Origin: Thiomicrorhabdus lithotrophica
GTDB lineage: Bacteria; Pseudomonadota; Gammaproteobacteria; Thiomicrospirales; Thiomicrospiraceae
Direction of reading: 5' to 3'
Length of the DNA stretch: 64,000 bases
Assembly (NCBI RefSeq): GCF_029201445.1
Contig: NZ_CP102381.1
Location: forward strand, 744,001-808,000
The notes beneath the pieces were generated by a model. That model worked only from the letters and a program-made list of their open reading frames with translations, was not told the origin of the DNA and made no database searches. The position numbers were made by a program, and so were the translations under genes. This document shows, piece by piece, positions 6,866 through 34,603 of this stretch (positions are counted from its first letter, which is position 1; each line of letters starts with the position of its first letter).

Positions 6866-6958
6866 GGAGACGTGGCCGAGAGGCTGAAGGCGCTCCCCTG
6901 CTAAGGGAGTATAGGGTTTGTAGCTCTATCGAGGGTTCGAATCCCTCCGTCTCCGCCA
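6866..6958 (+). tRNA. tRNA-Ser (anticodon GCT)
   Basis: The acceptor arms GGAGACG (6866-6872) and CGTCTCC (6948-6954) pair perfectly. The discriminator is G and CCA is encoded at 6956-6958. The anticodon stem-loop CTCCCCTGCTAAGGGAG gives GCT, which reads AGC and AGU. A long variable arm, as expected for tRNA-Ser, precedes a normal GGTTCGAATCC T-loop. Confidence 0.97.
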
Positions 6959-7036: not shown

Positions 7037-7113
7037 GCGCCCGTAGCTCAATTGGATAGAGTACTCGGCTACGAACCGAGCGGTTAGGGGTTCGACTCCC
7101 TTCGGGCGCACCA
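7037..7113 (+). tRNA. tRNA-Arg (anticodon ACG)
   Basis: The acceptor stem GCGCCCG (7037-7043) pairs with CGGGCGC (7103-7109). The discriminator is A and CCA is encoded at 7111-7113. The anticodon arm CTCGGCTACGAACCGAG yields ACG, normally modified to ICG to read CGN codons. Confidence 0.97.
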
Positions 7114-32448: not shown

Positions 32449-33006
32449 AAATAAATTAAATTGAAGTAACGCAGTAAACTTGAATGTAAACGGCTTTGAA
32501 ATTTTGCTGGAAATTCTAACATACGTTTAAAAACCCTGCTTTGACTTGTGTTTTTAAAATTAAAAGTGAATAAATCAAAAAAAAAGCTTGACACGGTATT
32601 AGTGTCAGTTAAATTTTATTGTCTATAATATTTGTTAACAGTGTTGTTTAACGTATTGTTTTTTAAGTTATATAGGTAAACTTTATGAGGCAATATTATA
32701 CAGTGTTTATTTATTGATTCTTTTCCACAAAAGCTGTGGATAACTTTGTGCGTAAAGTTTATAAAAGTAGCTTAAGTACTTTATATTAGCCATGAAATAT
32801 TAAGTTGCTTAAATTTTAAGCAGCTTGTAAAACTCGCGAATCAAGTAGGATTTTATAAGGTCATAAAGACAATATAAGTAAATTACTATCAACTAAAGAT
32901 GACAAAATAAATAAAACCGATACAATCACTAAATAAAAACAAAAAATTAGAAAAAATAGAGTTAGGTCATTAGTGATCTATTCAAAATTAAATTCATTGG
33001 GCTATT
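32449..33006. other. 558-bp divergent regulatory region before fnr
   Basis: No gene seen. It contains three inverted repeats: TGACAC-N7-GTGTCA (32589-32607), TCCACA-N5-TGTGGA (32724-32740) and TGCTTAAA-t-TTTAAGCA (32806-32822). The middle one contains a perfect DnaA-box-like TTATCCACA on the minus strand (32743-32735). A TTGACA and a TATAAT are present near 32588 and 32624, but 30 bp apart, so they are not a normal promoter pair. No FNR half-sites in proper array were found here. Confidence 0.5.
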
Positions 33007-33750
33007 ATGAATGAAGTGAAATCTGCATTTAATGCAAGTTGTTTAAACTGTGGACTCCAGAAGATATGTTTTCCAACAGGTCTGCTTAAGGCTGATATTG
33101 ATCGTTTGGATGATATCGTTGAACGCAAATCCCCTCTTAAAAAGAACCAGCATTTATATGAAACAGGACAAAAATTTAATGCAATTTTTGCTATTCGTGC
33201 TGGTGCCGTAAAGCTCTACTCTTACTCTGATTCTGGAGAAGAGATTGTTCATGGTTTTTACTTACCTGGAGACGTGGTTGGGTTTGATGGGTTGATTGAA
33301 AATACCTATCTGTATAATGCGGTTGCCTTAGATAGCACTAGTGTTTGTACTTTACCCTATGATCAGTTGAGTGATTTATCACTTAAAATTCCTAATCTAA
33401 ACAAGCAAATAATGTCGGTTATGAGTAAAAAGTTACAGGATGGCCAGCTTCATTCTGAACTCCTTATAAAGCGTAATGCAGATCAGCGGGTTGCACAGTT
33501 CATTTGGAATATGGCTGAACGCTACAAAAACCGTGGTTATGCATACGATGAGTTTCGTTTGAGTATTCTGCATCGTGACGTTGCATTGTATTTAGGGTTA
33601 ACGCCTGAAACGGTATCTCGAATACTTGCTAAGTTTAATAGTGATGGAATTGTCAGTTGGAAGAAAAAAGAAGTTATTATTTATAGCGAAAACAAATTGA
33701 AGGCTGTTGCAGGTATTAGTAACGGTGAAGTTTGTAAGGAAGTTGGATAA
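33007..33750 (+). CDS. fnr: FNR-type oxygen-sensing transcriptional regulator
   Basis: A CRP/FNR-family regulator that in E. coli holds an oxygen-labile [4Fe-4S] cluster and activates anaerobic genes. The 247-residue protein keeps all four ligands: C12, C15, C21 and C114. The C21-C114 distance equals that between C29 and C122 of E. coli Fnr. The effector domain shows IFAIRAGAVKLYSYSDSGEE and FYLPGDVVGFDGL. The helix-turn-helix DVALYLGLTPETVSRILAKF has the E..SR recognition residues for TTGAT half-sites. A perfect site of that kind lies just after the gene. Orthologues are called anr or etrA in some genera. Confidence 0.95.
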   Translation: MNEVKSAFNASCLNCGLQKICFPTGLLKADIDRLDDIVERKSPLKKNQHLYETGQKFNAIFAIRAGAVKLYSYSDSGEEIVHGFYLPGDVVGFDGLIENTYLYNAVALDSTSVCTLPYDQLSDLSLKIPNLNKQIMSVMSKKLQDGQLHSELLIKRNADQRVAQFIWNMAERYKNRGYAYDEFRLSILHRDVALYLGLTPETVSRILAKFNSDGIVSWKKKEVIIYSENKLKAVAGISNGEVCKEVG

Positions 33751-33783: not shown

Positions 33784-33825
33784 TTGATTTAAATCAATAA
33801 GAGTATTTTACAGCTATGCTTTAAT
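33784..33825 (+). promoter_or_regulatory. Class II FNR-activated promoter downstream of fnr
   Basis: TTGAT-N4-ATCAA at 33784-33797 is a perfect FNR box. Its centre lies 41.5 bp before a predicted start at A33832. The -10 TTTAAT at 33820-33825 (five of six matches to TATAAT) is exactly where class II FNR promoters need it. There is no -35 consensus, as expected for activator-dependent promoters. Confidence 0.75.
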
Positions 33826-33831
33826 TGGCAC

Positions 33832-33909
33832 ATGCAAAACGTTTTTAATTGAATTTACGTTTTTCATAATGTAGCCCGCTTACCCGGCTTTATGGCCGGG
33901 GTCTTTTTA
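33832..33909 (+). ncRNA. Predicted FNR-dependent small RNA (about 77 nt)
   Basis: Bounded by the class II FNR promoter and a rho-independent terminator, with no ORF of note between (the in-frame start at 33832 gives only MQNVFN). The 5' part has a possible weak stem AAAACG/CGTTTT (33837-33842 with 33868-33873 region), then a single-stranded U- and A-rich stretch and the terminator hairpin, the typical plan of Hfq-binding sRNAs. By analogy with FNR-controlled sRNAs such as FnrS of enterics, it could repress aerobic functions. No sequence homology to those is claimed. Confidence 0.5.
33882..33909 (+). terminator. Terminator of the predicted sRNA (and of fnr)
   Basis: CCCGGC (33883-33888) pairs with GCCGGG (33895-33900) around TTTATG, followed by GTCTTTTTA. 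It stops both fnr read-through and the short transcript. Confidence 0.85.
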
Positions 33910-34066: not shown

Positions 34067-34603
34067 ATGTCTATCAAAAACATTTCACAGTTATTTTTAG
34101 TTGGTTTTTTAGGTTTCGCATTAGTTGGTTGTAGTTCTACACCTAAAACTGATGGTATGGATGGTAAAGATGCCGCTTCTAGTCAGGTTGATGCTGATAT
34201 TGAAGCTGCAAAACGTGCAGCAGCAGAACGTGCAGCAGCAGACTTAGCAGCTAAAAAAGCTGAAATTAAGGCTATAATTGATGGTAATGTTGTTCATTTC
34301 GATTTTGATATGTCTGATATTCCTCCAAGTGATTATGAATTAATTAAAGCCCACGCTGATTACATGTCTCTTGAGTCTGATCTAAAAATTACTGTTAGTG
34401 GTTATGCTGATGAAAGAGGAACTCGTGAATATAACTTAGCACTTGGTGAGCGTCGTGCTCAAGCAGTAAAAAATGCTTTGATTGCTGAGGGTGTTAGTCC
34501 AAGTCGTATTAGCGTTATAAGTTTTGGTGAAGATAATCCAGTTGACGAAGGTCACTCTGAAGCTGCATGGTCTAAAAACCGTCGTGCAGAATTTTCTTAC
34601 TAA
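34067..34603 (+). CDS. pal: Peptidoglycan-associated lipoprotein (Pal/OmpA family)
   Basis: An outer-membrane lipoprotein of 178 residues. Signal peptide with lipobox LVGC; the lipidated Cys is about residue 22. An Ala/Lys-rich linker (40-70) follows, then an OmpA-like domain (about 72-178) with VHFDFDMSDIPPSDY, VSGYADERGTREYNLALGERRA and KNRRAEF. These match Pal, which links outer membrane and peptidoglycan with the Tol system. The usual tolB neighbour is absent, so this is a lone copy and could be a Pal-like paralogue. It follows a good AGGAAGA ribosome binding site and has its own terminator. Confidence 0.85.
   Translation: MSIKNISQLFLVGFLGFALVGCSSTPKTDGMDGKDAASSQVDADIEAAKRAAAERAAADLAAKKAEIKAIIDGNVVHFDFDMSDIPPSDYELIKAHADYMSLESDLKITVSGYADERGTREYNLALGERRAQAVKNALIAEGVSPSRISVISFGEDNPVDEGHSEAAWSKNRRAEFSY

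Follow-up and report, generated by a model that had tools for sequence, protein, structure and literature searches.

The fnr gene of Thiomicrorhabdus lithotrophica is followed by a perfect binding site for its own product, which raises the question of what active FNR would switch on there. We analysed this locus within a 64 kb stretch of the genome, hereafter the window. An initial annotation of the same DNA had proposed a small RNA (sRNA) activated by FNR, and its description of the promoter is correct to the base: the box is centred at 33790.5, i.e. 41.5 bp before A33832, and TTTAAT (33820-33825) occupies positions -12 to -7, as expected of a class II site. A TG at 33817-33818 makes this an extended -10 element. 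The strong terminator that had been placed about 77 nt further on consists of a G+C-rich stem (33883-33900) and a T run (33904-33908), and there is no open reading frame (ORF) of at least 60 aa between fnr and pal, in agreement with the claim that no useful ORF lies there. The features of the locus are listed in Table 1. A scan of all 64 kb found no other perfect FNR box. Boxes with at most one mismatch number 7 in the window, against 6.0 expected; hence, an FNR box by itself is little proof of regulation. The window also holds two tRNA genes, at 6866-6955 and 7037-7110.

Table 1. Coordinates of the proposed sRNA gene, its neighbours and its putative pairing site, as positions of the window
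Feature	Position	Strand	Basis
Proposed sRNA pairing site on fnr mRNA, TTGGGCTATTATGAAT	32997..33012	+	Spans the start codon (33007-33009)
fnr, oxygen-sensing FNR (NCBIfam PRK11161)	33007..33750	+	NF008365, 234 bits (cut-off 228); cluster cysteines and E..SR
FNR box TTGATTTAAATCAA, class II (-41.5)	33784..33797	+	Kept in 30/30 loci with the RNA core
Extended -10, TGCTTTAAT	33817..33825	+	Spacing and TG conserved across RNA-bearing loci
Predicted FNR-activated sRNA, ~77 nt	33832..33908	+	5' end placed by promoter spacing
5' hairpin of the sRNA	33832..33867	+	Fold; sequence and length differ by lineage
Conserved core CATAATGTAGCCCGCTT, proposed seed	33865..33881	+	Columns without variation, or almost so, in 27 rows
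Intrinsic terminator of the sRNA, probably of the fnr mRNA too	33883..33908	+	Terminator scan; helix paired in relatives
pal (peptidoglycan-associated lipoprotein), next gene, outside the unit	34067..34603	+	TIGR02802, 134 bits; 158 nt past the terminator

We searched 62 genomes of the family with the FNR protein of the window. Matches were found in 58, yielding 57 FNR-grade loci, all of which were read; the only match in G014 (E 5.8e-4) was not counted as fnr, and a truncated locus (L064, genome G044) was omitted from the start-site and tree tests, which used 56 of the 57. A unit comprising an FNR box, an extended -10, a 5' hairpin, the motif TAGCCCG(C/T)T and a terminator lies behind fnr in 30 of the 57 loci, with 15 carriers among the 31 loci of the window's genus and 15 in four other genera. 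The initial annotation had made the presence of box and -10 in close relatives a test of its proposal. The seven loci closest in FNR identity (L010-L016, 72-89%) have both, as do the four further genera, but within the window's genus the unit is missing entirely from 16 of the 31 loci, which reads as loss. Promoter spacing is conserved along with the unit. The box has 0-1 mismatches in all 30 core-bearing loci and is perfect in 17; a hexamer ending in AAT starts 36 bases past the start of the box in 27 and 35 bases past it in three; and TG precedes this hexamer in 29, while in two loci (L020 and L057) a different hexamer in the interval outscores the matched -10. Core and terminator always come no more than about 150 nt past the box. 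Between the fnr stop codon and the box lie 0-208 nt, and the RNA is 65-95 nt long; both lengths vary freely, so the conservation is not due to a reading frame. The iron-sulphur cluster cysteines and E..SR residues that had been noted in the window's regulator are shared by all 56 full-length FNR proteins of the family.

These comparisons bear on the reading in which the box simply drives a protein-coding mRNA, or pal, and no sRNA exists. Such promoters have a precedent outside the family: among 153 genomes of the class with an FNR match we inspected 27 loci from other families, and in 10 of them an FNR box within 400 nt downstream of fnr seems to serve the next gene. Within the family, however, core and terminator accompany the box in 30 of 30 loci, a box with 0-1 mismatches occurs within 260 nt in merely 2 of the 27 core-less fnr loci, and the gap in the window has no 60-aa ORF. 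This reading was already disfavoured, and we regard it as extremely improbable. By eye, the next gene at the box-bearing loci outside the family is OmpW-like in L334, L335, L338, L340, L343 and L344, and CcoN-like in L339 and L341. As a guess, the sRNA may have evolved out of an FNR-type promoter of this sort behind fnr.

The predicted transcript has the layout of an Hfq-type sRNA, i.e. a hairpin, an open conserved seed and a U-tailed terminator, with a modest signal for the 5' hairpin (mean z -1.4 over 30 loci, and below -1 in 17). The fold of the window's RNA as a whole is moderately better than that of shuffled sequences (z -2.1; 6 of 200 shuffles were as good). In the isolated RNA, 33868-33881 (GTAGCCCGCTT) is open, with unpaired probabilities of 0.87-0.99, and the first three bases of the core, CAT, are mostly paired in the hairpin (0.09-0.23). 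The unpaired region had initially been placed at 33850-33875; the conserved open stretch is instead 33868-33881, within the core. TAGCCCG, the TT one base later and parts of the terminator are invariant in 27 aligned rows; part of the invariance of TAGCCCG(C/T)T follows from the use of the core motif to pick the 30 positives. L019, L058 and L060, of the 30, were left out of A1 and A2. The fold of the terminator is well established: across 13 rows from other genera all 91 cells of its helix are paired, and 14 of them have changed on both sides, compared with 5.2 in shuffles. The number of pairs with a two-sided change (4 of 7) is not clearly above that in shuffles (mean 3.3), whereas the cell and covariation counts are. 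Hfq scored over the cut-off in 58 of the 62 genomes and in 28 of the 30 with the RNA, the other two being incomplete genomes; an Hfq match was found in 50 of 50 good genomes.

A terminator scan of the window found no second terminator between fnr and the core. With no other terminator in this gap, the fnr mRNA probably ends here, and the element would then lie at its 3' end, from which it could also be released by processing. The same observation, together with the complementarity between the 5' and 3' ends of the fnr mRNA described below, would suit a purely cis-acting element, in which the end of the mRNA pairs with its own beginning and there is no separate sRNA. We consider this very unlikely, because it leaves unexplained why all 30 loci keep an FNR box and an extended -10 at a constant distance. 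The comparison strongly supports the proposal of an FNR-activated sRNA beside fnr (30 of 57 loci). Judged from conserved sequence, the locus very probably contains a real sRNA gene of this kind, and we infer both its transcription and the dependence of that transcription on FNR.

We also searched with R1, a covariance model made from the 13 rows of the other genera. R1 matched 30 of the 62 family genomes at E <=2.7e-7, every time beside fnr, with the next best match at 1.3e-5; these are the same 30 as found by the core motif, with no further members. The most altered core, TAGCCCGTTAGCCC, belongs to L058 (genome G016), which also has a long terminator stem and scores 34 bits, against at least 42 for the other 29; the genome is incomplete, and sequence errors are possible. 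At E 0.1 all 62 genomes gave some R1 match. Twelve weak matches away from fnr were inspected and resemble ordinary terminators; one weak match (L385) has a one-mismatch box nearby, and the others have none with fewer than two mismatches. A lone pattern match away from fnr, in G021, has no box. In a sample of the class (369 genomes from 271 genera, 4 of the family), R1 made three matches at E 1e-6, all within the family; the genomes covered from the order all belong to this one family. A pattern scan of a collection of named genomes gave 28 places, 16 of which were confirmed by R1, in records named Thiomicrorhabdus, Thiomicrospira, Sulfurivirga or Hydrogenovibrio or assigned to MAGs of higher rank. 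One contig labelled 'Lysobacterales' (L148) carries the sRNA as well as an FNR that shares 87% identity with the protein of L061, a Sulfurivirga-like member of the family, and is probably misbinned.

On a tree of 56 FNR proteins, presence of the sRNA requires 5 changes, compared with a mean of 18.8 for shuffled labels, and none of 500 shuffles was as low. The starred branches of this tree force only 2 changes, and long branches leave parts of it unsure. The simplest story is that the sRNA arose early in the family and was then lost several times. Just behind fnr in L017 (L017:2280-2443) we noted a MITE-like element with inverted ends of 22 nt that are 91% complementary, and a similar element is present in L029; both loci lack the sRNA, and the element is possibly linked to its loss there.

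Searches of Rfam 15 at gathering and loose thresholds returned no match at the sRNA apart from weak ones far below curated scores. Our literature search found no paper on an sRNA downstream of fnr or on an sRNA acting with fnr mRNA; most subscription papers lay outside this search, which carries little weight for print at large. Queries combining small RNA with Thiomicrospira and FNR, or with Thiomicrorhabdus, returned nothing on the subject as judged by titles and the beginnings of abstracts.

FNR-controlled sRNAs are known from other lineages. FnrS is described as a small RNA that FNR activates in the absence of oxygen, and a pulse of FnrS as reducing more than 30 other mRNAs (PMC8139620). 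The fnr-adjacent sRNA would share this trigger, FNR at low oxygen. The two differ in position, E. coli fnrS being about 9.6 kb from fnr while the family sRNA adjoins it, and we found no sign of common descent: FnrS is absent from the Rfam matches of the sRNA up to E 10, and R1 has no match in the E. coli fnr-fnrS region at E 0.001, in keeping with the initial view that the RNA is analogous to enteric FnrS and not homologous. Anr is an FNR homologue. In Pseudomonas aeruginosa, SicX is described as induced at low oxygen via Anr and as activating translation of ubiUVT (PMC10247376), and in Neisseria meningitidis AniS is described as induced by anoxia under FNR control (PMC4423775). Likened by description only, both share the low-oxygen trigger; SicX differs in its activation of ubiUVT, and AniS in its lineage. 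A resemblance of another kind is to OppZ and CarZ of Vibrio cholerae, reported as sRNAs from operon 3' ends that pair with their own transcript to inhibit translation and are made from mRNA by RNase E processing (PMC7398697, PMC9438474). The family sRNA likewise lies at the 3' end of its putative target gene, behind fnr at 30 of 30 loci; unlike OppZ and CarZ, it has a predicted promoter of its own that includes a site for the protein encoded by the parent gene, and this protein is a transcription factor.

The sequence of the core suggests a target. Its reverse complement, AAGCGGGCTACATTATG, has a start codon at its end, and GGGCUA lies 8 nt upstream of the fnr start codon in the window. With slightly longer flanks, TTGGGCTATTATGAAT and the core form 14 pairs across the start codon with a two-base bulge (-16.6 kcal/mol). 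A 20-nt core stretch against fnr from -30 to +21 gives -15.7 kcal/mol, ranking first of 54 gene starts in the window (the next reaches -13.4), and ranks second of 54 if the range is extended to +63; the 54 genes are mechanical ORFs of at least 110 aa, less two that overlap. At the fnr start GGGCTATT is mostly open (unpaired probability 0.49-0.98). Since this stretch and GTAGCCCGCTT are open and CAT is paired, first contact would be made by GGGCUAU with GUAGCCC.

If fnr is the target, core matches should be enriched at the fnr starts of loci that have the RNA. CAT was dropped from the core to keep start codons from favouring a match, and matches were counted between -30 and +63. Matches of at least 6 nt occur at 14 of 30 fnr starts of RNA-bearing loci and, with the consensus core, at none of 26 of RNA-less loci, at none of 26 starts of the next gene (four of the 30 loci gave no next gene), and in 79 of 976 other windows of 93 nt. 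Matches of 7 nt occur at 8 of 30 fnr starts and in 10 of 976 other windows, and of 8 nt at 4 of 30 and in 1 of 976. Relatedness inflates these counts, and kinship is allowed for only in the test that takes one row from each of 11 lineages, where a mean of 5.7 of 11 have a match (P ~0.001; 0.009 for the least favourable draw). If CAT is included and at least 7 nt required, the counts are 14 of 30 against 3 of 26, with a mean of 1.9 and a maximum of 5 of 30 for shuffled cores. Restricting the range to -30 to +33 retains a match in 13 of 30 loci. GGCT precedes the fnr start in 12 of 30 loci against 0 of 26, in a test chosen after the sequences had been seen. Start codons of L056, L058-L061 and L065, and the 11 lineages, were set by hand.

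Duplex energy, which rewards G-U pairs, separates the loci less sharply. From -30 to +63 the fnr start is among the best 5% of its own locus in 15 of 30 RNA-bearing and 5 of 26 RNA-less loci, and from -30 to +21 in 14 of 30 and 7 of 26; in four RNA-less loci (L025, L031, L043 and L044) the duplex is at least as strong as -18.5 kcal/mol. The median p is 0.02 for fnr, with 19 of 30 loci at 0.05. We also considered pal as a target and ruled it out (median p 0.385, 0 of 26 at 0.05).

Depending on the lineage, the matching site starts at -16, -9, -8, +3, +5, +27, +43 or +45, a spread as expected if pairing is kept despite turnover of the site. The window's clade has it at -8, and the distant genus g2 has it at -8 or -9. 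Sites at +43 and +45 overlap codons of a conserved C-G-L-Q motif and could reflect coding constraint. No 6-nt match is present at the fnr start in 16 of the 30 RNA-bearing loci. Among these is a subclade of g1 (L018-L021 and L024), although at +42 L024 offers a site rich in G-U pairs; this subclade may have other targets or use a weak site at that position. The excess of complementarity between core and fnr starts is clear against three controls, and we read it as a real signal, as far as sequence can tell, and not a universal one. On balance, fnr is probably a target and repressed.

The loci without a clear fnr site lend themselves to a different reading, in which the sRNA is a global regulator in the manner of FnrS, activated by FNR and repressing many genes dispensable without oxygen, so that the fnr match is minor or accidental. 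The trigger would be as described for FnrS and AniS (PMC8139620, PMC4423775), a core kept in five genera would suit many targets, and Hfq is found in nearly all of the genomes, as counted above. We looked for complements of the core elsewhere. In the 30 RNA-bearing genomes a perfect complement of 10 nt occurs at 81 places, 27 of which are the sRNA itself; the remaining 54 compare with 91 for a backward control. The window's genome has a single such place, the sRNA. Inspection of the 54 found no gene-start site that recurs beyond sister species; five pairs of similar proteins recur, and in the sister species L283 and L303 a gene that is peptidase-like by eye has a site near codons 9-11. Among the matches listed for the window's own genome, GCGGGCT or AGCGGGCT precedes ATG at 51 places, against 12 for the backward control. 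In 20 own-genome stretches with GCGGGCT near ATG, most sites, judged by eye, fall within coding frames or in stems that resemble terminators, and we put the excess down to these and not to trans targets. No conserved trans target was found in the 30 RNA-bearing genomes among the matches listed, in searches with low power for short seeds. Additional trans targets are possible, and we consider the global reading rather unlikely. The initial suggestion that the sRNA mediates indirect repression by FNR found no support in these searches of limited power, and the best-supported target is fnr.

The reading we favour, and hold to be reasonably probable from the sequence comparisons, is negative feedback in which FNR activates an sRNA gene nested at the 3' end of fnr and the sRNA represses fnr mRNA. 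At low oxygen, FNR carrying its iron-sulphur cluster would bind the box at -41.5 and switch on the promoter with the extended -10. The resulting transcript of about 77 nt would expose the open conserved core between its 5' hairpin and its terminator with U tail, and Hfq would assist its pairing. The core would pair with fnr mRNA just upstream of the start codon or, in other lineages, at or just within the coding region. Pairing would block translation of fnr, such that active FNR limits its own synthesis. Five of 30 RNA-bearing loci (L015, L021, L055, L056 and L057) and 2 of 26 RNA-less loci (L026 and L046) also have FNR boxes in the 250 nt upstream of fnr, and ordinary promoter autoregulation of fnr may coexist with the sRNA loop or replace it.

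Transcription factors that limit themselves usually act at their own promoter. If the favoured reading is true, FNR would instead limit itself by way of a small RNA kept at the 3' end of fnr. In its widest form, to which we give somewhat better than even chances, the proposal is of a transcription factor with its own brake behind its gene: an oxygen-gated, post-transcriptional loop that would have arisen early in the family and been lost several times, with a pairing site that moved and a core that stayed fixed. The finding adds an RNA family without an Rfam 15 match. This compact circuit would be present in part of the family and absent from close relatives that keep fnr, so that its effect on the oxygen response could be tested by comparison and by a change at one site.
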